Source: Desertivirga arenae (GTDB lineage: Bacteria; Bacteroidota; Bacteroidia; Sphingobacteriales; Sphingobacteriaceae). Taken from it: a stretch of DNA of 64,000 nucleotides. Within the stretch, counting starts at the first letter, position 1. Each line of letters begins with the position of its first letter. Shown piece by piece: positions 5,302 to 15,285 of this stretch. A program made the position numbers and the translations under genes. Below the pieces are notes generated by a model. The model was not told the origin of the DNA. It did not search any database and worked only from the letters and a program-made list of their open reading frames with translations. The DNA lies in the NCBI RefSeq assembly GCF_017355785.1, contig NZ_JAFEWE010000001.1, positions 930,001-994,000 on the forward strand, in the 5' to 3' direction.

Positions 5302-6228
5302 TTATCTAAGTTCATCTGTGTTGTAACTATAACGCTCGATTAGCTCGTTCGTCAGGTCAGTTACATTTACACTAAATGAATAAGGCATAACTAACAGTGG
5401 CACTTTTGCTGTATCTGCCATTTTTTTACTAATACTGGAATGAAACAGGCCCTGCAGGAAACCATACCTTTTGTGCACTAATGTTAAAATTCCAGGGCGG
5501 CTTGAAGTTGTTAATTGAGTGAGGCATTTAGCAATATTATCCCCCTTAATATTAATATAAGAGATCTTTGGATGCCCCTCCGGATACAACTCGTTTAACG
5601 TTCTTAATAAAATCTTTCCCGAATTCAGTCCTTCAAAACCCTTCCTTGAAATATGGCTTACAAGGATTTCGGCTTTAAAAGCAGAGGCAATTTTAGCAAG
5701 ATAACTGATTACCAAAGTATCACTGAAAGTTAAGTCAGTAGCGTAGGTTATCGTACTAAAATCAGTCATACTTAAACCCTCCGGCAATAAAAGTACAGGA
5801 CAGTTAACTTTGTCCAAAACTTCATGAGTATGACTACCCATTAGAAAACGGTTAAAACCCGTCGACTTATGTGCCCCCATAACCACCAGATCTGCACCTT
5901 TTTCCTTTACCAAACCTGCTGTTACCGGAGCTAACTTTCCAAATTCGCTAACGCAAGTAATAGAAGGCTGATAGGATGTTAAGTTTTGCTGTGCAAGCTT
6001 CTTTAAATGCTTACTTAAATCGCGAAGGTCCATCAAACTATCCTGCTTCAAAGCAATATTATCTGCTATGGGCCAGGAAATTCTTTCTGCCTCATCCTCG
6101 TCGTCTGCAAGCTCTATTGCGTGGCATAATACCAGATCTGCTTCGGTTTTAATAGCAATCTGTAAGGCAAACTCTGCAGCTTGCTGAGCACGAATGGTGA
6201 AGTCTGTAACTACGAGGATGGTATTCAT
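5302..6228 (-). CDS. Universal stress protein, two UspA domains
   Basis: 308 residues, cytoplasmic, with two UspA-type domains in tandem (about 1-150 and 155-290). Domain 1 begins MNTILVVTDFTIRAQQAAEFA and has the nucleotide-binding-type loop VVMGAHKSTGFNRFLMGS followed by CPVLLLP. Domain 2 is more diverged but keeps the closing VPLLVMP strand. Tandem Usp proteins are common in Bacteroidota and usually respond to stress, starvation or low oxygen. The promoter carries a CRP/FNR-type palindrome at the same position as in pflB and adhE, which suggests anaerobic or redox induction. A strong terminator follows the gene, so it is likely monocistronic. Confidence 0.9.
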   Translation of the reverse strand: MNTILVVTDFTIRAQQAAEFALQIAIKTEADLVLCHAIELADDEDEAERISWPIADNIALKQDSLMDLRDLSKHLKKLAQQNLTSYQPSITCVSEFGKLAPVTAGLVKEKGADLVVMGAHKSTGFNRFLMGSHTHEVLDKVNCPVLLLPEGLSMTDFSTITYATDLTFSDTLVISYLAKIASAFKAEILVSHISRKGFEGLNSGKILLRTLNELYPEGHPKISYINIKGDNIAKCLTQLTTSSRPGILTLVHKRYGFLQGLFHSSISKKMADTAKVPLLVMPYSFSVNVTDLTNELIERYSYNTDELR

Positions 6229-6246: not shown

Positions 6247-6289
6247 TAAAAGTGAGACTAAAAAATAACCCTGCGAATGATTTGCATCA
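6247..6289 (-). promoter_or_regulatory. Promoter of usp (5302-6228) with CRP/FNR-type palindrome
   Basis: TGATTTGCATCA at 6278-6289 (TGA-N6-TCA). On the minus strand 6254-6247 reads CACTTTTA, a -7-like element. The palindrome centre (6283.5) is 29.5 nt from the first base of that element, identical to pflB and adhE. This geometry suits an activator bound near -41.5. The start codon lies about 20 nt past the -7 element. Confidence 0.6.
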
Positions 6290-6335
6290 CTTTAAACTGT
6301 GATTGTTTGCAAATCCTTATATTTTTAAAAAGACC

Positions 6336-6746
6336 TTAGTAATGGGAATATAATTTGCCTGACATCTGCTTTACCGCATTAAATGCTCTCAAAAGATCTT
6401 TAAGCTTAACTTCTATCTTGAAATGATTTTCAAGAAGGCTGAGGTTATATACTGAATCAGGATGCTCTATCAGGGTAGCAACAAATGCAAGATAAGCCTG
6501 AGCTTCAATCCTTACATCTTCCATAATACTCCATACTTTATCAAAAAGGAATAATACTTCATCCGCTTCTTCGGAATTGTTTTCTGCCGATACACGGGAA
6601 AGCGCTTTCATATATCCCTTTTTCAAAACCCGTATATCTTTTTCAAGCAAATCGAGCTCTGAGAGCCAGTTTTTTCCTATTAAGGTTAGCTCCCTTAGTT
6701 CCTTGCTCAGTTCTTTATCTTCGATAGTAGTTGTCATAAGTATCAT
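6336..6746 (-). CDS. Hypothetical helical protein
   Basis: 136 residues from the first ATG, or 133 from a second ATG at 6739-6737 that gives MTTTIEDKEL. The composition is strongly helical and charged, with heptad-like Leu/Ile spacing (LSELDLLEKDIRVLKKGYMKAL), suggesting a small soluble coiled-coil or four-helix protein. There is no signal peptide or membrane segment. A -7 match TAATTTTG lies at 6761-6754 on the minus strand, so close to the first ATG that the second ATG is the more credible start. The gene sits between two usp genes and I do not recognise its family. Coding seems likely from length and context. Confidence 0.6.
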   Translation of the reverse strand: MILMTTTIEDKELSKELRELTLIGKNWLSELDLLEKDIRVLKKGYMKALSRVSAENNSEEADEVLFLFDKVWSIMEDVRIEAQAYLAFVATLIEHPDSVYNLSLLENHFKIEVKLKDLLRAFNAVKQMSGKLYSHY

Positions 6747-6806
6747 TTTAAAACAAAATTAAAACCGATCCTTCTGTTTTTGAATGACTTACAACCCGAC
6801 GATAAA

Positions 6807-6869
6807 TGATCTTCGTCAACCATTCCTTCTAAACTGGTCAGATAAGCCGATCCTTAATGATAAATATCA
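6807..6869. promoter_or_regulatory. Two upstream CRP/FNR-type palindromes in the usp intergenic region
   Basis: TGATCTTCGTCA (6807-6818) and TGATAAATATCA (6858-6869) both fit TGA-N6-TCA; the second is a perfect TGAT-N4-ATCA. Together with the site at 6919-6930 they make three sites in 124 bp between the small gene at 6336-6746 and the usp gene at 6989. Neither of these two sits at the 29.5-nt distance from a -7 element, so they would be auxiliary sites. Confidence 0.45.
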
Positions 6870-6918
6870 ATATGGCGATCTCGGCAACTCCAGGCCTTCC
6901 GAAAGTCACAGAGCCTCA

Positions 6919-6961
6919 TGATACCAGTCATTTTATCTCCTATTATTTTCCGGCAAATTTG
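6919..6961 (+). promoter_or_regulatory. Promoter of usp (6989-7885) with CRP/FNR-type palindrome
   Basis: TGATACCAGTCA at 6919-6930 (TGA-N6-TCA) has its centre at 6924.5. CAAATTTG at 6954-6961 is a -7-like element beginning 29.5 nt downstream, the same geometry as pflB, adhE and the other usp. A start site near 6966 would leave a leader of about 23 nt before ATG 6989. It would also exclude the longer frame starting at 6857. Confidence 0.55.
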
Positions 6962-6988
6962 ATAGAGACATTTAATCTAATCAGAGCT

Positions 6989-7885
6989 ATGGATTCAATT
7001 CTAGTACTTACCGATTTTTCATATACTGCATACAATGCAGCGAAATATGCAGTCAACCTGGCGAATAAATTGCCTGAAGCAAAAGTGATACTATTACACT
7101 CATTCAATAATTGTGAAGATCCTGCTCCCCCCTATGCATCGGAGGTTCAGGATCCCTGGATTAAAGCACTGGAACGATTAAACGATATGCAGGGACTTCT
7201 GGAATTATTTGCAAGCAAAACAACGCGTATCGAAATAAAAACAGATGAAGGCTGCCTTGAAAAGACGATTAAGAGGATCAGCGACGAAAAAGAGGTTGGG
7301 TTGATCGTTTTAGGTAGCAAGGGAAATTCTGACAAAACAAGCTTTATTGGAAGCAATACGCACAAACTTGCTCATATCTCTGAAATCCCCTTATTGATCG
7401 TTCCGCCCGATACCGAATTTCAAATCATTCAAAAAGCGGTCTTTGCCTGCGAACTCCATGAAACTGCTTCTATTTCCCTGCGTGATAACCGTAATTTCAT
7501 TCACCTTTTACATAGCAAGATCTCTTCTATTTTTTATCAGAACGAATCGGAAGATTTTGACCCAAGAGCAGCCAAACATTTAAAGGCTTTATATCAACTA
7601 CTTGACTCTATAGAACCAAATCTTTCTTATGTGCAAGGAGAACAAGCCGTTGAGAGTACAATCAGCTTTGCTCTTAATAATGATATGCAACTGGTAACGA
7701 TTATCTTAAAAACACCTGCCTTTTTAGATACTATTCTTCATCCAAATCCGGTAAGCCAACTGGCACAATACGCGGATTTTCCAATACTTGTTCTTAAACC
7801 CGTTAATTTCAAGAAAGAATTTTCTGATAGAGATAAGGAAAAAAATAATCGAAAAAAGCACGAGACAGCCGAGGACAGGCTTTAA
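6989..7885 (+). CDS. Universal stress protein, two UspA-like domains
   Basis: 298 residues from ATG 6989 (MDSILVLTDFSYTAYNAAKY), the natural beginning of a UspA fold. An in-frame ATG at 6857 would add 44 residues unlike any Usp N terminus and would lie upstream of the predicted promoter. Domain 1 (about 1-140) has the nucleotide-loop pattern IVLGSKGNSDKTSFIGS and ends IPLLIVPP. Domain 2 (about 145-275) is weakly conserved and ends FPILVLKP. The tail is very basic and acidic (DRDKEKNNRKKHETAED) and probably disordered. It is divergent from the small gene at 6336 and likely co-regulated with the other usp and the fermentation genes. Confidence 0.85.
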   Translation: MDSILVLTDFSYTAYNAAKYAVNLANKLPEAKVILLHSFNNCEDPAPPYASEVQDPWIKALERLNDMQGLLELFASKTTRIEIKTDEGCLEKTIKRISDEKEVGLIVLGSKGNSDKTSFIGSNTHKLAHISEIPLLIVPPDTEFQIIQKAVFACELHETASISLRDNRNFIHLLHSKISSIFYQNESEDFDPRAAKHLKALYQLLDSIEPNLSYVQGEQAVESTISFALNNDMQLVTIILKTPAFLDTILHPNPVSQLAQYADFPILVLKPVNFKKEFSDRDKEKNNRKKHETAEDRL

Positions 7886-7902
7886 GGCATTCAAAAAAGA
7901 GA

Positions 7903-7937
7903 AAAAGGCGAAGGGAATCATCTCTTCGCCTTTTTTT
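7903..7937. terminator. Bidirectional rho-independent terminator
   Basis: Arms AAAGGCGAAG and CTTCGCCTTT with a 10-nt loop, flanked by a T run on the plus strand and a matching A run on the other side. It can end usp transcription and also act on read-through from adhE. Confidence 0.85.
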
Positions 7938-7981
7938 ATGAAGGCCATTAATATTTATTATAAATGATGCGCAAAAATAAA

Positions 7982-8006
7982 GGCGGCCATCATAACAATG
8001 GCCACC
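7982..8006 (-). terminator. Terminator of adhE
   Basis: Inverted repeat GGCGGCCAT/ATGGCCACC (one mismatch). On the minus strand it is followed by TTTATTTTT. It lies 26 bp beyond the adhE stop. Confidence 0.75.
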
Positions 8007-8032
8007 TTCGGTACATCTATTTGTAATGAAGC

Positions 8033-10660
8033 TTATGCTAATTCAAGCTTTTTCTCTTTAGGAGCTTGTGCAGCTTCCTTTCCTTTAAAGGCCTTTATGT
8101 AAATTTCCTTCAATTCGCTGATTAAAGGATAACGAGGATTTGCGCCCGTACATTGATCATCAAAAGCTTGTTCAGACATGTTGTCTAATGAAGCATAAAA
8201 TTTCGCTTCTGGCACCCCAAACTCTTTAATGGATTTTGGAATACCAACTTTAGCTTTCAGCTCGTCTATAGCCTTGATCAAAAGCTCAATCTTTTCATCT
8301 TCGGTATTTCCTCCAAGGTTCAAATAGTCTGCTATACGTGCATATCTCCATTTTGCATTAGGATATTTATACTGAGGGAAGGCGGCTTGTTTGCGTGGGT
8401 TATCTACTGCGTTGAAACGAATCACCTCAGTGATTAACATTCCATTAGCTACACCATGCGGAACATGATGCGTAGCACCTAGCTTATGGGCTAAAGAGTG
8501 ACAAATACCCAGGAAGGCATTGGCAAAGGCCATTCCTGCAATAGAAGAAGCATGAGCCATCTTTTCCCTGGCCTTTATGTTCGTTGTACCTTCATTATAA
8601 GCATCCGGCAGGTATTTGAAAATCAAACGAATTGCTTCCAAAGCCAAGCCATTGGTAAACTCAGATGCAAGAACAGAAACGTATGCTTCGAGAGCGTGAG
8701 TCAAAGCGTCGATACCTGAAGCAGAGGTTAGGCCTTTTGGCATATTCATCATCAGCTCTGCATCAACAATCGCCATATCAGGAGTCAACTCGTAATCAGC
8801 GAGAGGATACTTGATGTCTGTATTTTCATCCGTGATAACAGCAAACGGAGTAACCTCTGAACCGGTACCAGCAGAAGTTGGTACTGCTACGAACATTGCC
8901 TTTTCGCCCATTTTAGGGAAACTATACACGCGTTTACGGATGTCCATAAAGCGCATAGCCAGGTCTTCAAATCTTTCTTTCGGATGTTCATACAATACCC
9001 ACATAATTTTGGCCGCATCCATTGGTGAACCTCCTCCCAAAGCTATAATGGTATCTGGATTAAAGATCGCCATCTCTGCAGCACCCTTTCTGGCACAAGA
9101 AAGCGTTGGATCTGGTTCAACATCGAAATAAACAGTATGCTCTATTCCTAATTCATCCAGGACTTTCGTAACGTGATCAATGAAACCTAAGTTGTAAAGA
9201 ACTTTATCGGTAACAATAAAGGCTCGCTTTCTACCGAGGTCTTTCAATTCACGTAAGGCCACAGGAAGACATCCATATTTAAAATAAACCTTTTCTGGCA
9301 TCCGGAACCAAAGCATATTTTCGCGACGTTTTGCTACACTCTTAATATTTAATAAATGTTTTACTCCTACGTTTTCTGAAACGGAATTTCCGCCCCAGCT
9401 ACCGCAACCTAAAGTTAAAGATGGAGACAGCTTAAAGTTGAAGATATCGCCAATAGCACCTTGAGAAGATGGCATATTGATGATCGTACGACCCGTTTTC
9501 ATAGCAGCGCCAAATTTCTCAATCCTCTCCTGACTCTTAACTGCATCTGTATAAAGAACAGAGGTATGACCAAATCCACCAGCTTTAACTAATTTCACCG
9601 CTTTATCCAATGCCTCGTCAAAACTCTTCGCTTTGTACATGGCCAGCACCGGTGACAGTTTCTCATGAGAGAATGGTTCTTCGTGCTCTACAGATTCTAC
9701 CTCTCCAATAAGGACCTTAGTCTCTTCCGGCACAGTAACACCTGCTAAGGCGGCGATCTTGTGAGCTGATTGACCAACAATGTTAGCATTCAGAACACCA
9801 TTGATCAGGAGAATTGCTCCGACTTTACTGGTTTCTTCTTTTTTCAGGATATATGCACCACGCTCTGCAAATTCGCGTTTCACTTCTTCATAGATCTTGT
9901 CTACCACAATCACGCTTTGCTCTGAGGCGCAGATCATTCCATTATCAAAAGTCTTAGAAAGCAGCACAGAGTTAACCGCCATTTTAAGGTGGGCAGTCTC
10001 GTCGATAATTGCAGGCGTATTACCTGCTCCCACTCCGATTGCTGGTTTACCAGAAGAATAGGCCGCCTTAACCATACCAGGACCACCGGTAGCCAAAATC
10101 AGGTCGGCCTGTGCCATTACGATTTGAGACAGTTCTACACTAGGCTCTTCAATCCAGCTAATGATCCCTTCAGGAGCTCCAGCTTTCACTGCCGCATCTA
10201 AAACGATCTTCGCAGCTGCAATAGTTGATTTCTTAGCCCGTGGGTGAGGAGAGAAAATAATACCGTTACGTGTTTTCAAAGCAATTAAAGCTTTAAAAAT
10301 AGCAGTAGAGGTTGGGTTGGTTGTTGGCACTACTGCAGCGATAACACCTATCGGTTCGGCAATCTTCACGATTCCAAACGCCTCGTCGGTTTCAATAACG
10401 CCACAAGTTTTTTCGTCCTTGTACTGATTATAGATGTACTCGGATGCGAAGTGGTTTTTGATCACCTTGTCTTCCACAAGCCCCATTCCCGTTTCAGCAA
10501 CGGCCATTTTCGCCAGCTCTATTCGAGCATTATTTGCGGCAATAGCTGCTTGTCTAAAAATCTCATCAACCTGCTCCTGGTTGAATGTTGAGAACTGCTT
10601 TTGTGCTTCCCGGATCTTTTCGATCTGGGCGATCAGCTTTTCGGTATTTGTTGTTTTCAT
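8033..10660 (-). CDS. adhE: Bifunctional acetaldehyde-CoA/alcohol dehydrogenase
   Basis: 875 residues, full length for AdhE. It reduces acetyl-CoA to acetaldehyde and then ethanol, using 2 NADH, and forms cytoplasmic spirosome filaments in known members. The N-terminal CoA-acylating aldehyde dehydrogenase domain (about 1-440) has the catalytic Cys244 in NGMICASEQ and the nucleotide motif GVGAGNTPA. The C-terminal iron-dependent alcohol dehydrogenase domain (about 455-860) has GGGSPMDAAK, PTSAGTGSEVTPFAV and the metal-binding GICHSLAHKLGATHHVPHG. It works with pflB/pflA nearby to dispose of reductant during fermentation. It has its own terminators, and two CRP/FNR-type palindromes lie upstream. 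The assignment is very secure. Confidence 0.98.
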   Translation of the reverse strand: MKTTNTEKLIAQIEKIREAQKQFSTFNQEQVDEIFRQAAIAANNARIELAKMAVAETGMGLVEDKVIKNHFASEYIYNQYKDEKTCGVIETDEAFGIVKIAEPIGVIAAVVPTTNPTSTAIFKALIALKTRNGIIFSPHPRAKKSTIAAAKIVLDAAVKAGAPEGIISWIEEPSVELSQIVMAQADLILATGGPGMVKAAYSSGKPAIGVGAGNTPAIIDETAHLKMAVNSVLLSKTFDNGMICASEQSVIVVDKIYEEVKREFAERGAYILKKEETSKVGAILLINGVLNANIVGQSAHKIAALAGVTVPEETKVLIGEVESVEHEEPFSHEKLSPVLAMYKAKSFDEALDKAVKLVKAGGFGHTSVLYTDAVKSQERIEKFGAAMKTGRTIINMPSSQGAIGDIFNFKLSPSLTLGCGSWGGNSVSENVGVKHLLNIKSVAKRRENMLWFRMPEKVYFKYGCLPVALRELKDLGRKRAFIVTDKVLYNLGFIDHVTKVLDELGIEHTVYFDVEPDPTLSCARKGAAEMAIFNPDTIIALGGGSPMDAAKIMWVLYEHPKERFEDLAMRFMDIRKRVYSFPKMGEKAMFVAVPTSAGTGSEVTPFAVITDENTDIKYPLADYELTPDMAIVDAELMMNMPKGLTSASGIDALTHALEAYVSVLASEFTNGLALEAIRLIFKYLPDAYNEGTTNIKAREKMAHASSIAGMAFANAFLGICHSLAHKLGATHHVPHGVANGMLITEVIRFNAVDNPRKQAAFPQYKYPNAKWRYARIADYLNLGGNTEDEKIELLIKAIDELKAKVGIPKSIKEFGVPEAKFYASLDNMSEQAFDDQCTGANPRYPLISELKEIYIKAFKGKEAAQAPKEKKLELA

Positions 10661-11078
10661 GACTAATAATTTGATCAGCTTTAGTGGCTGATTATTCCTT
10701 AATTAATTGAAATCAGTTGCATGCAAATCTCTCTTCACAAGTAAAGATGGTGTAATTACTACACTAAGGAAATGATAGTTATCAAGGCTGTTTATGATAC
10801 GTATCAAGAGTAGGACAAGAACAAAGTGAGCTAATAGATTTTTGGATCGATGTTCGGGTTAATTAAGGTAGCTAATCTCCCAAAATATTCTTATCCGGGA
10901 GGTTTAAGGCATAAAGTCACGAAACATTATTATCTGAATACAAGCCAGTTGAAACCAAAAAAACCACCAGACAAGGCTAAAGGGCAATGAACCTTTATAG
11001 GAGATAACAGGCGATTGAAAAAGATGAGGAGAATCAATTTTTGCTTTGATTCACCGGGCTGATATCACTCAACACCTC
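10661..11078. other. adhE-pflA intergenic region
   Basis: A 418-bp stretch without a convincing gene. The half next to adhE holds its promoter and two palindromes, plus a 10-nt palindrome TTGCATGCAA near 10718-10727. The half next to pflA has a weak inverted repeat GAATCAA/TTGATTC (about 11032-11053) with no T run, so no clear pflA terminator. A plus-strand frame of 47 codons from an ATG near 10850 has no features supporting it as a gene. Confidence 0.5.
10742..10806 (-). promoter_or_regulatory. adhE promoter with tandem CRP/FNR-type palindromes
   Basis: TGATAGTTATCA (10773-10784) and TGATACGTATCA (10795-10806) are both perfect TGAT-N4-ATCA with ATCAA on one flank, close to the FNR consensus TTGAT-N4-ATCAA. 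Their centres are 22 bp apart, about two helical turns. On the minus strand 10749-10742 reads CATCTTTA, a -7-like element. The nearer palindrome centre (10778.5) is 29.5 nt from its first base. Confidence 0.65.
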
Positions 11079-11864
11079 CTATTTCAGGATCACATTATCA
11101 AAATATTTGTCGAAAATCTTTTTCGCCTTTTGTTTCAATTCTTCTGAAGGGACCGGGGTATCTTTAAGAGGATAGTTCATCCCAAGAAGATCCCATTTAT
11201 GACTACCTAACTGGTGAAAAGGAATAAGCTCAACGCGTTCAACTGTTTTATAATTTGTAAAATGCTGCCCCCATTGCTCCAGATATTCCTCCTGATCAGA
11301 CCAGCCTGGCACAAGCACATAGCGCAACCACATTTTCCTTCCACTGTCTTCCCGGTATTTAGCCAATTCCAGCGTATTCTTATTGGTTAATCCAGTCAGC
11401 TTATGGTGCCATTCGTCATTAATATGCTTTACATCCAGCAAAAGGATATCGGTGTAGTCCAAAAGATCGTGTACTTCCTGGTTATTTAAGCGTCCATTAG
11501 AATCAAGACAAGTATTAATACCCTCCTCCTGCAAGCGTTTGAAGAAGGTAAGTAATTTAGTTCTCTGTAGTAAAGGTTCTCCACCGGATACTGTTACGCC
11601 ACCATCCTTTCTGAAATAAGCCCGCTGACGCTTGGCCCTTTTTACCAATTCTTCAATTTCAACCAAGGTTCCTCCCTTTACATCTATGGAGTCGGGGTTC
11701 TGGCAGTAAAGACATCTGAACTGGCATCCCTGAACAAAAACCACCATCCGGATACCGGGGCCGTCATGGGTACCAAAGGTCTCCAGTGAATGGATCCTCA
11801 AATGTTCCGGATCGTTCACATTCAACTTGGCAGCATCTATATCTTGTAAAGGGAAATAATTCAT
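11079..11864 (-). CDS. pflA: Pyruvate formate-lyase activating enzyme (radical SAM)
   Basis: 261 residues, usual for PflA without extra ferredoxin domains. It uses a [4Fe-4S] cluster and S-adenosylmethionine to make the glycyl radical on PflB. The cluster motif CxxxCxxC is Cys47, Cys51 and Cys54 (CQFRCLYC), preceded by the family segment SLETFGTHDGPGIRMVVFVQG. GGVTVSGGEPLLQ, the radical-SAM glycine motif, follows. It lies downstream of pflB on the same strand, but a strong terminator lies between them. It therefore depends on partial read-through or on its own promoter, for which I see no convincing match. Confidence 0.96.
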   Translation of the reverse strand: MNYFPLQDIDAAKLNVNDPEHLRIHSLETFGTHDGPGIRMVVFVQGCQFRCLYCQNPDSIDVKGGTLVEIEELVKRAKRQRAYFRKDGGVTVSGGEPLLQRTKLLTFFKRLQEEGINTCLDSNGRLNNQEVHDLLDYTDILLLDVKHINDEWHHKLTGLTNKNTLELAKYREDSGRKMWLRYVLVPGWSDQEEYLEQWGQHFTNYKTVERVELIPFHQLGSHKWDLLGMNYPLKDTPVPSEELKQKAKKIFDKYFDNVILK

Positions 11865-11987
11865 AGTGTATTTTACGTTTTCGGTAGCGTTTTGTTCCGA
11901 TTAAAGATCGAGATTAAAGCCTTTCATTTCTAAATCTGCAGTACAACTTCTTGCTGAGCGTCTTTATCAGGAGGCTGGGTATAGGGC

Positions 11988-12022
11988 AAAAAAAAGCCAG
12001 GCCCGGGGTAAAGGCCTGACTT
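11988..12022 (-). terminator. Terminator of pflB
   Basis: Hairpin arms AAGCCAGGCC/GGCCTGACTT (one mismatch) followed on the minus strand by TTTTTTTT. It lies 35 bp after the pflB stop and 124 bp before pflA. Confidence 0.8.
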
Positions 12023-12056
12023 CAAACCACAGACAAAAAACAGATTCTTTATCTAC

Positions 12057-14291
12057 TTACATACTTTCGTGGAAAGTACGTGTAATTACTTCTAATTGAT
12101 GTGCCCTTGATAATCTTACGAAGTTCACAGCGTATCCTGATACCCTGATCGTTAATTGAGGGTAGTTTTCAGGATGCTCGTAGGCATCGATGAGCGTTTC
12201 GCGGTTAAGCACGTTCACATTCAGGTGATGAGCATTTTGAAGGAAATATCCTTCCAACGTATTCACCAGGTTATTTACCTGTTCCTCTCTGCTATCTCCT
12301 AATGATTTCGGAACCATAGAGAAGGTGTTGGAGATCCCGTCCTGAGCGTCGTTATAATCCAGTTTACATACCGAATTTAAAGATGCTATAGCTCCGCTAC
12401 AGTCACGACCATGCATTGGATTTGCGCCTGGTGCGAAAGCTTCACCTGCTTTACGACCATCAGGAGTTGCTCCAGTGTTTGTACCGTACATCACGTTTGA
12501 GGTGATAGTAAGCAGTGATAGTGTTGGAGTTGCATTTTTGTAAGCTACGTGCTTACGAAGCTCTGCTACAAAATATTTGGTTACCTCCTGAGCGATGCTG
12601 TCTACTCTGTCATCATCATTACCATACTGAGGATATTCTCCTTCAATTTTGAAATCAACGGTTAAGCCTTTTTCGTTCCTTACAGGGGTAACTTTTGCAT
12701 ATTTAATAGCAGATAAAGAGTCGGCAATAATTGAAATACCTGCAGCACCATAAGCAATGTCGATATGCGGATCAGTATCAACCAGAGCCATCTGTGCTCT
12801 TTCATAGTAATACTTATCGTGCATGTAATGAATAATGAACATTGCTTTAGCATACACTCTGGCGAGTTCGCTTAACGTGCGTTTGAACACATCAAACACT
12901 ACGTCATAGTCCAAAGCGCCGTCTGCAATTTGAGGTATATTCTTGATCACCTCCACTCCGTCATGCTCTTCACGGCCACCATTCAAGGCAATTAATAAAG
13001 CTTTAGGAAGATTGGCTCTTGCACCAAAGTGTTGAATTGATTTTCCGATCTCCTGGTAAGATACGCAACAAGCGATACCATAATCATCTCCACCACGGAT
13101 ACTTCTCATCAAATCATCATTCTCATACTGGATAGAAGAGGTATCGATAGAAACCTGAGCACAGAACTTTTTGAAGCCTTCAGGTAATTGCTCAGACCAA
13201 AGCACTGTCAAGTTTGGCTCAGGTGATGCCCCTAAATTATAAAGGGTTTGAAGGAATCGGAATGAAGTACGGGTTACTTTCGTACGACCGTCATGTAAGA
13301 TACCACCGATGGATTCAGTTACCCAGGTAGGGTCTCCACCAAAGATCTCATCGTAAGATCCAGGGCGAAGGTGACGAACTAAACGTAACTTCATCACGAA
13401 CTGGTCGATCAACTCCTGAGCACCTTCTTCGTCTAACAAACCTGCTTCAATATCTCTTTCCAGGTAAACATCAAGGAATGAAGAAACGTTACCCAAAGAC
13501 ATCGCTGCTCCATCTTGTTCCTTTACTGCTGCCAGGTAGGCAAAGTAAACCCACTGTACTGCTTCACGGGCATTTTCAGCCGGTCTGCTAACATCAAAAC
13601 CATATTCAGCAGCCATTTTGATCATATCATTCAAGGCACTGATCTGAGTGTTGATCTCTTCACGTAGACGAACTTTATGTTCAGTCATTTCGCCACCTAC
13701 CTTAGAGAAGTCAGCTTTTTTGAATTTTATAAGCTGGTCAGCTCCGTACAGCGCAAGGCGACGGAAGTCACCAATGATACGACCGCGGGCATAATTATCA
13801 GGTAAGCCTGTTAAAACGTGTTTAGACCGGAAAGCACGGATCTCAGAGTCATAGGCATTAAACACCCCTTCGTTGTGGTTTTTAGCGTAATTAAATACAT
13901 CCAGAACCCGATCTGAAGGTTTAAGACCTCTTTCTTTCAAAGCAGATTCAACTAATTTGATTCCGCCGAAAGGCTTCATTGCTCGTTTAAGTAGTTTGTC
14001 TGTTTGCAGACCAACAATAACTTCGTCCTCTTTTTTAATATAACCCGGACGGAAAGCTGTCATTGTAGAAATAGTTTCAGTGTCAATTGCAAGGCATCCG
14101 TTATTTGCTCTCTCCTGCAATAAGGCAACTTTTACTGTATCCCAGAGGCTTTGAGTCCTTGGAGAAGGACCGGCAAGGAACGATGCATCGCCTGTATATG
14201 GCTTTATATTCTTTACAACAAAATCATATACATTTAGCGCTGTGTTCCAATCTCCTGGCACAAATGGGATTGCTTTGACATCTGTTTTCAT
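12057..14291 (-). CDS. pflB: Formate C-acetyltransferase (pyruvate formate-lyase)
   Basis: 744 residues, standard PflB length. It converts pyruvate and CoA to acetyl-CoA and formate anaerobically in the cytoplasm. The adjacent catalytic cysteines are Cys408-Cys409 (GIACCVS). The glycyl-radical site is Gly719 in RVSGYAV, 25 residues from the C terminus. Both are intact, so the enzyme should be active once charged by PflA. Its product acetyl-CoA is the substrate of AdhE encoded downstream. The promoter holds a perfect -7 element and a CRP/FNR-type palindrome, which fits oxygen control. Confidence 0.98.
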
Positions 14292-14315
14292 ACTGTTTTG
14301 CTTTTAATTATGATT

Positions 14316-14358
14316 CAAAAGTAGCGGGAATGGGGCGGCAGAAGTATGATTCGCATCA
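14316..14358 (-). promoter_or_regulatory. pflB promoter with CRP/FNR-type palindrome
   Basis: On the minus strand 14323-14316 reads TACTTTTG, a perfect TAnnTTTG -7 element about 25 nt before the pflB start. TGATTCGCATCA (14347-14358) has its centre at 14352.5, exactly 29.5 nt from the first base of the -7 element. This places an activator near -41.5. The site is also 75 bp from the start of the divergent araC gene and could affect it. Confidence 0.7.
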
Positions 14359-14427
14359 CAATTAAAAATGATTTGAGGATTTTGTGGGGGATACGCACTA
14401 ATATCTAACTTCGTAGCCTGGTTTTAT

Positions 14428-15285
14428 ATGAGAACAAAAAAAGCCGATCTCCCGGTTCAGGAATTACTGGAAGGTGAGTACTTACGGGTAACTCGTCTGC
14501 ATAAGGATTTAAATAATCTTTCAGTTGTCCCCCATCGTCATGATCATTACGAAATGATGATCGTAACAGAGGGTAATGGCACGCATTCCATAAACTTCAA
14601 AAACTATTACATAAAACCTAACAGGGTCTATTTCATTCATCCCGGACAAGTGCATATCATAGAACCCTTTGAACGGAGTGGTTGGCTCATCCTATTTGGG
14701 GAAGAACTTTTCAAACGTTTTCTGAACATTCATCCTCATGAAGATGAGTATGGATTACTTGACTCGTATACCCATAATCCCTTTGTGGATCTACATGCCG
14801 GTCTTAACAAAATATTCTCTCTCCTTATCGAGCAGTTAAACACAGAGTTATCCGACCCCAAACAAGACGTTGATATTCTATTACATTACGTATCTCTGCT
14901 ATTGCTGCATGCCAACCGGACTCAAATAGTCCAGCACCCACAGATTCAGCTCCCAGCCCGGAACAAGTTGCTATTCCATAAGCTCAAACAATTAATAGAG
15001 GCCAACTTCAAGCAAGAACATTTAGCTGCATTTTATGCTAGTGCTTTGGGTACAGATATCAAACAACTTAACAAAGTATGCCGGCTAGCTACCGGGTTAA
15101 CGGTTTTTGAATTACTACAGGAAAGACTATTAACTGAAAGCAAGATACAACTGCAAACTTCAGCAGGATCTGTAAAAGAAATAAGCTATGCCCTAGGCTT
15201 CAATGACCCCGCTTTTTTCGGACGTTTTTTCAAAAAACACACGCAGTTAACACCGGCCGAGTTTCGAAAAACCAGGATGATATAA
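14428..15285 (+). CDS. AraC-family transcriptional regulator
   Basis: 285 residues. An N-terminal cupin-like sensing domain (about 10-160; VPHRHDHYEMMIVTEGNGTHSI and FIHPGQVHIIEP) is followed by a C-terminal double helix-turn-helix AraC domain (about 190-285; VKEISYALGFNDPAFFGRFFKKHTQLTPAEFRK). It is divergent from pflB, sharing a 136-bp intergenic region, and upstream of an exporter gene. It may control either neighbour; the ligand is unknown. Confidence 0.92.
   Translation: MRTKKADLPVQELLEGEYLRVTRLHKDLNNLSVVPHRHDHYEMMIVTEGNGTHSINFKNYYIKPNRVYFIHPGQVHIIEPFERSGWLILFGEELFKRFLNIHPHEDEYGLLDSYTHNPFVDLHAGLNKIFSLLIEQLNTELSDPKQDVDILLHYVSLLLLHANRTQIVQHPQIQLPARNKLLFHKLKQLIEANFKQEHLAAFYASALGTDIKQLNKVCRLATGLTVFELLQERLLTESKIQLQTSAGSVKEISYALGFNDPAFFGRFFKKHTQLTPAEFRKTRMI

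Follow-up and report, generated by a model that had tools for sequence, protein, structure and literature searches.

Among the FNR-activated promoters of E. coli with a known start, 19 of 23 carry the site near −41.5, focA-pflB being one of the targets, and one site was found in 89% of the peaks of the E. coli FNR set (PMC3688515). In rhizobia the FixL–FixJ–FixK and hFixL–FxkR–FixKf cascades end in a regulator of the CRP/FNR type that binds a TTGA-N6-TCAA-like site (PMC4999443). For the Bacteroidota a TAnnTTTG −7 box has been described for sigma-ABfr (PMC7366714), and the MalR/Cur-type CRP family has been described as a group of carbon regulators, with the Flavobacteriales homologues assigned to MalR (PMC8510549). 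Here, a stretch of 64,000 nucleotides (nt) from Desertivirga arenae (positions 930001-994000 of contig C12 in the 6.19-Mb genome; hereafter the window) was analysed, in which the promoters of pflB, adhE and two universal stress protein genes (usp1 and usp2) share a TGA-N6-TCA palindrome at one fixed distance from a −7 box.

Palindrome and −7 box at a fixed distance

The composite element was defined as TGAY-N4-RTCA-N23-NANNTTTR and the same pattern reversed was used as the control. On both strands of the window the composite occurs four times, and these are the four promoters of a preliminary description made from the letters alone, whose palindromes, boxes and distance of 29.5 nt from the palindrome centre to the first base of the box were all re-found (Table 1); the Pfam matches likewise agree with the gene identities that it had given. 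At all four sites 23 nt lie between the 12-mer and the box, and the two-fold symmetric TGA-N6-TCA is present at each. In 200 dinucleotide shuffles of the window the composite occurred 0.02 times on average (maximum 1), and the palindrome by itself, found 33 times in the window, occurred 20.4 times (standard deviation 4.4). The box pattern NANNTTTR was written with the four boxes already known and is shaped on them, so that the weight rests on the tests outside the window.

A scan of the whole genome, as proposed in the preliminary description, gave 23 composites against five matches of the control, with pflB, adhE and usp genes among them. Of these composites, 21 lie outside any open reading frame (ORF) of at least 60 amino acids (aa); the remaining two (usp2 and a usp gene at C41) lie inside ORFs that start too early, the mechanical ORF of usp2 beginning at 6857, upstream of the ATG taken at 6990. 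An ATG follows the box within 90 nt in 17 of the 23 cases and within 62 nt in 16, and the six composites without an ATG within 90 nt may be chance matches. The genes behind the composites include five of the ten distinct usp genes of the genome (with the composite 61–70 nt before the ATG), pflB, adhE, a U32 peptidase and a DUF892 protein (the last two by Pfam), together with QueD-like, atpA-like, ilvD-like and permease-like genes named by eye from the protein starts. When all gaps of 10–40 nt were counted in this genome, five of 35 pairs fell at gap 23 with the pattern NANNTTTG and three of 16 with the pattern TANNTTTG.

The base before TGA is G in 13 of the 23 sites and T in four, and the consensus reads GTGAT-N4-ATCAT-TTT, with T favoured after TCA. 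The plain FNR consensus TTGAT-N4-ATCAA was discarded for these sites on account of both flanking bases. The likeness to it that had been noted earlier stands in so far as the adhE proximal site comes closest, but the sites overall are not clean FNR sites. A palindrome at 6858 was also considered as a fifth class II site; the palindrome is real, but it was rejected because no box lies at the 23-nt spacing on either strand.

Across 121 genomes of the family the composite was found 995 times and the control 172 times, the motif exceeding the control in 106 genomes and falling below it in five. A gap spectrum was taken from ten relatives picked for high composite counts, with pairs of TGAT-N4-ATCA and TAnnTTTG counted at gaps of 10–40 nt. 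Of the 124 pairs, 45 have gap 23, six gap 22 and seven gap 24, with a mean of 2.3 and a maximum of 6 outside gaps 21–25; as the choice of genomes favours gap 23, the peak itself and not its exact height is the result. The regions upstream of pflB were read at 80 loci, and in the 70 covered by the pair count (TGAN6TCA with TAnnTTTG, gaps 10–40) there are 17 pairs, 15 at gap 23 and two at gap 22. The 15 loci with gap 23 comprise four from Sphingobacteriales and eleven from Flavobacteriaceae; the layout is absent from every Bacteroidales locus read, those of Bacteroides, Porphyromonas and Prevotella included. Closest to the pflB of the window, among the named pflB loci compared, are those of Desertivirga and Arcticibacter. 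Low-oxygen and fermentation genes stand behind such sites in the relatives, most of them named by eye from the protein starts.

The fixed distance between palindrome and core promoter that is expected of a class II site was thus found in the window, the genome, the family, the pflB loci and the regulator loci described below. The class II geometry and the low-oxygen or redox regulon put forward in the preliminary description are both supported by comparison, through the exact spacing in genome and family, the pflB footprint and the low-oxygen or fermentation genes behind the sites in relatives. On these sequence patterns the layout is very probably genuine, a promoter architecture of class II type that belongs to a low-oxygen regulon and in which the position of the box would place the palindrome centre at −41.5.

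A second palindrome at a 22-bp step

At adhE the composite is preceded by a second palindrome (centres 10778.5 and 10800.5), and this tandem, with the box 23 nt after the proximal palindrome, recurs in four of the five relatives with a full-length AdhE (G006, G041, G020 and G054). Pairs of TGAT-N4-ATCA at gaps of 0–30 nt were collected from the family; among the matches listed (75 distinct places), gap 10, which corresponds to a step of 22 base pairs (bp), accounts for 31 and the next commonest gap for seven. The flanks of 30 gap-10 tandems were read: a box stands at 23 nt in loose form in 27 and as a strict TAnnTTTR in 13 (four of them orthologous), in one orientation, and strict boxes at other gaps of 10–40 nt amount to two at gap 24 and one at gap 29. 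The 23 composites of D. arenae had been selected by their proximal site alone; at −22 they match TGAN6TCA in 2.74 of 6 letters on average, compared with 1.09–1.96 at the other offsets from 13 to 45; a score of 5 or 6 is reached at −22 by five composites and at any other offset by at most one. The scores at −22 are 6 for adhE, 5 for usp1, 4 for usp2 and 3 for pflB. Among 395 genomes of the class, 146 contain the tandem with TAnnTTTG at 23 nt, and the reversed pattern gave 0 in every row; the 13 tandem-plus-box places in 12 loci that were read all lie outside ORFs of at least 70 aa.

In the mechanism that we propose, a dimer of the CRP/FNR superfamily would bind TGAY-N4-RTCA centred at about −41.5 and, at a −7 box of the TAnnTTTG type that begins after a gap of 23 nt, contact the RNA polymerase with the primary sigma factor of the Bacteroidota. 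The adhE promoter would accommodate another dimer side by side with the first, 22 bp further upstream (near −63.5), perhaps cooperatively, and usp1 and usp2 would offer a weaker second copy at the same step. A single site among the four may be inert, usp2 being the weakest.

The second peak of the tandem spectrum is gap 24 (36 bp centre to centre), with seven of the 75 places among the matches listed; gap-24 pairs lie at G054:C12:44733, G041:C3:358472 and G020:C38:9986, and three of the seven look orthologous.

Table 1. Genes and promoter elements around the four composites (window coordinates)
Feature	Positions	Strand	Remarks
usp1, universal stress protein	5302..6228	-	Pfam PF00582
usp1 -7 box CACTTTTA	6247..6254	-	
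usp1 palindrome TGATGCAAATCA	6278..6289	-	centre 6283.5
usp1 near-palindrome TGCAAACAATCA	6300..6311	-	22 bp upstream; 5/6 letters; best offset tested
usp2 degenerate element TTCCGAAAGTCA	6897..6908	+	22 bp upstream; 4/6 letters; best offset tested
usp2 palindrome TGATACCAGTCA	6919..6930	+	centre 6924.5
usp2 -7 box CAAATTTG	6954..6961	+	
usp2, universal stress protein	6990..7885	+	start ATG 6990 (MDSILVLTDFS); Pfam PF00582
adhE, bifunctional aldehyde/alcohol dehydrogenase	8033..10660	-	Pfam Aldedh + Fe-ADH
adhE -7 box CATCTTTA	10742..10749	-	
adhE proximal palindrome TGATAACTATCA	10773..10784	-	centre 10778.5
adhE distal palindrome TGATACGTATCA	10795..10806	-	centre 10800.5; exactly 22 bp upstream of proximal
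radical SAM protein, probably PFL-activating enzyme PflA	11079..11864	-	Pfam Radical_SAM + Fer4_12; name from position beside pflB
pflB, pyruvate formate-lyase	12057..14291	-	Pfam PFL-like + Gly_radical
pflB -7 box TACTTTTG	14316..14323	-	23 nt 3' of palindrome
pflB palindrome TGATGCGAATCA	14347..14358	-	centre 14352.5; inferred class II position; genome-wide match
ATCCTCAAATCA, upstream of pflB palindrome	14369..14380	-	22 bp upstream; 3/6 TGA/TCA letters; no better than other offsets

Several neighbouring features were recorded alongside. Divergent from pflB, and sharing with it the intergenic region that holds the palindrome, lies the gene of an AraC-type regulator with an AraC_binding domain (14428-15285, plus strand). 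Between usp1 and usp2 a 136-aa protein without a Pfam match is encoded (6336-6746, minus strand). It resembles short proteins encoded after or next to promoters of this kind in G014 (L332), G006 (L324) and G084 (L310), with phmmer E values of 8e-13 to 1e-6 among the eight sequences compared and a possible coiled-coil bias. At C12:929583, 418 nt 5' of the window, TGATCTATATCA and TATATTTG stand at gap 24 before a phosphoglycerate mutase-looking gene, and the usp gene at C41 is followed by gapA- and pgk-like genes.

Candidate regulators

The regulator gene had been described as absent from the window, and none of the ten HTH_Crp_2 matches of the genome lies inside it. Seven matches are over the cut-off, one of which (L006) reads as another regulator type, and three (L002, L003 and L004) combine a receiver domain, a cNMP-binding domain and HTH_Crp_2 (REC-CRPs). 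L002, on contig C34, is encoded directly behind a FixL-like kinase with HisKA and HATPase domains. The PAS domain of this kinase matches FixL structures with an E value of 4e-32; it retains the Arg in IGIGR and, in the haem-binding helix, the His, and we take these two residues to play the roles of the proximal His200 and the distal Arg220 of BjFixL. Both residues are kept in 24 distinct kinases beside L002-like genes in the family (the Arg of L261 by eye; L266 matched only in the wrong frame). The recognition helix of L002 reads ETISR, as does that of E. coli FNR; the protein has no N-terminal Cys cluster, its input being the receiver domain. A separate FixJ-type regulator was not found beside the kinase, whose neighbour is the REC–cNMP–HTH_Crp_2 fusion; FixJ was not searched for elsewhere in the genome.

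Of 30 family loci, 20 have a TGAN6TCA within 260 nt behind the REC-CRP stop codon, and each of these 20 carries a strict TAnnTTTG exactly 23 or 45 (23 + 22) nt after a palindrome, both palindromes being present in six loci, only the proximal one in four and only the distal one in ten. The next gene is D-lactate-dehydrogenase-like (in D. arenae, by Pfam) or a shorter homologue (by eye), followed by hemN. The palindrome would serve the nearer ldhA-like gene; hemN was rejected as its target, as it starts further on and its own upstream 260 nt hold a palindrome in six of 26 cases and a box at 23 nt in none. Autoregulation through palindromes directly upstream of the regulator genes was also rejected: TGAN6TCA occurs within 220 nt upstream of three of 30 REC-CRP and one of 28 FNR genes, with a box at 23 nt in none, and the site that is conserved follows the REC-CRP gene. 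In the FixL-like operon of G006 a tandem lies upstream of the kinase, at 57 nt as reckoned from the box position; the box is imperfect. Elsewhere in G006 a DUF4914 protein (L188:13847-15799) is encoded directly behind a REC-CRP near pflB and adhE.

The four sites are probably class II sites of a low-oxygen regulon, most likely under the control of the FixL-like kinase and its REC-CRP. At low oxygen the haem-PAS kinase would phosphorylate the receiver domain of the REC-CRP, and the pathway would unite in a single step the work that FixL, FixJ and FixK share in rhizobia. Three points favour the REC-CRP for the window: a conserved site follows its gene, its helix is of the FNR type, and in the genome G084 a REC-CRP and no Cys-containing FNR (Cys-FNR) was found and the composite occurs 19 times against two for the control. 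Exact sites in G084 precede pflB, a transporter before pflB, and genes resembling queD and that of a U32 peptidase; three of these four are also met with behind the 23 composites of D. arenae. As the main driver at these promoters the pair appears likelier than any single rival, although unproven.

A number of observations weigh against this assignment. Only the pflB box among the four matches TAnnTTTG in full, pflB has no second palindrome at −22, the adhE tandem is missing from L190 (G014) and in G006, a member of the same genus, a composite-like site with an imperfect box stands at one of eight usp genes. The REC-CRP of the FixL-like operon has no palindrome in the 220 nt upstream in 27 of 30 loci, the kinase lying between, and the D. 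arenae genome has two Cys-FNR-like proteins beside its three REC-CRPs. The 121 genomes were also sorted by Cys-FNR (E < 1e-30) and REC-CRP (E < 1e-38): the motif and control counts are 462 and 75 (2.48 per Mb) in the 38 genomes with both regulators, 129 and 15 (2.42 per Mb) in the 16 with Cys-FNR only, 370 and 67 (1.83 per Mb) in the 48 with REC-CRP only and 34 and 15 (0.61 per Mb, a small excess) in the 19 with neither, these being raw genome counts that ignore shared descent, with cut-offs set after the lists had been seen. In genomes of at least 3 Mb the densities are 2.48, 2.12, 1.84 and 0.60 per Mb in the same order; as the ratio of the last group (23 to 5) is no lower there than in the others, density and not ratio carries the point. 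Both kinds of regulator go with the motif by these counts, and since the genomes with only Cys-FNR carry it, the REC-CRP is not its sole reader.

It is conceivable, if rather unlikely, that a Cys-containing FNR-like protein, L005 (C12:530138-530827) or L001 (C12:561272-562006), activates the four promoters as an iron–sulphur oxygen sensor and that the REC-CRPs serve other promoters. Each carries a central Cys and a cluster of Cys at the N-terminus, in a spacing that we take to differ from that of E. coli FNR, and the motif excess in genomes with only this type speaks for them, as does a third FNR type with the composite directly behind its gene (L312 and L313). Their recognition helices, however (ETVFR in L001 and ETFFK in L005), are without the Ser of ETISR, several Cys are lost in some relatives of the group (L244, L245 and L249), L001 sits in a nitrate-assimilation cluster and the genomes with REC-CRP only have their own excess of the motif. 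These paralogues may be rivals or partners of the REC-CRP.

The third FNR type (L312, L313 and L321) has an N-terminal CxxCx7C and the helix TATET. The composite behind its gene in L312 and L313, which shows that true FNRs can use the same code, stands before a Cys-rich copper-exporting ATPase-like protein, and in L321 a tandem lies behind the gene. The cluster around L001 (L057/L058; G000:C12:545001-580000) encodes nitrite reductase-like and molybdopterin oxidoreductase proteins. TGAT-N4-ATCA occurs near L001 at C12:555881, 562252 and 568609 with boxes that are not at 23 nt, possibly marking a second, differently spaced regulon.

Somewhat less probable still is activation of at least the usp genes by a REC-CRP paralogue (L003 or L004) under another kinase, in which case redox or a stress unrelated to oxygen may be the signal. 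A composite lies between L003 and a fifth usp gene, which are transcribed divergently, and in G006 an L004-like REC-CRP near pflB and adhE has a composite on its own strand and a usp gene in divergent orientation; on the other hand, the helices of L003 and L004 (HESLIR and QESLIR) differ from ETISR, and no FixL-like kinase lies beside either in the stretches read. At the four promoters the REC-CRP behind the FixL-like kinase would be preferred to its paralogues. It is quite improbable that the AraC-type regulator beside pflB mainly controls that gene and that the palindrome is minor or repressing: its divergent position and AraC_binding domain fit such a role, but this would not explain why the layout recurs at adhE, at usp and at 19 further sites of the genome, or why it is conserved at pflB in 15 of 70 loci. 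Chance, for which one might cite the three imperfect boxes and the lack of a scan for chance sites in the preliminary description, is hardly credible for the four matches; the gap spectrum and the class-wide tandem pattern with zero controls refute it as an overall explanation.

Comparison with known systems

As a tentative extension, for which we would claim somewhat less than an even chance, there may be a class-wide Bacteroidota code of two dimers at about −63.5 and −41.5 before TAnnTTTG; in the Sphingobacteriaceae its driver would be the haem kinase with the receiver-CRP, and phosphorylation-driven pairing of dimers would turn on fermentation, haem and stress genes. Among the papers listed by a literature search, none deals with this tandem or with a FixL/REC-CRP pair from Bacteroidota, which is weak evidence of novelty as most subscription journals were outside its coverage. 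FixL cascades and FNR promoters of class II are already known; the REC-CRP as direct output, the tandem with its 22-bp step and the class-wide spread are new within the literature searched, which says little about oxygen control in Bacteroidota other than a few species of the gut and mouth. The combination of palindrome, 22-bp step, 23-nt gap and TAnnTTTG can be scanned for in any genome of the class and names both targets and a candidate sensor–regulator pair, and the natural set of single-site and double-site promoters bears on the interplay of a CRP-type activator with the unusual sigma factor of the Bacteroidota.

The promoters resemble the class II promoters of E. coli FNR in that TGA-N6-TCA occupies a constant position, which overlaps the upstream promoter element; they differ in the Bacteroidota −7 box, in the consensus GTGAT-N4-ATCAT-TTT instead of TTGAT-N4-ATCAA and in the common second site 22 bp upstream. 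FNR proper, a [4Fe-4S] sensor, may have its counterpart in the Cys-containing FNR-like paralogues, and genomes with only those share the motif, whereas the REC-CRP lacks the N-terminal Cys cluster. The MalR/Cur proteins belong to the same superfamily and the same phylum, but the targets here are fermentation, low-oxygen and usp genes. With the rhizobial cascades the system has in common a FixL-type haem-PAS kinase and an end regulator of the CRP/FNR type; it differs in that the receiver is fused to the CRP module and the operon lacks a FixJ or FxkR as a step of its own, and in that the linked targets are fermentation genes and not fixNOQP or nif.

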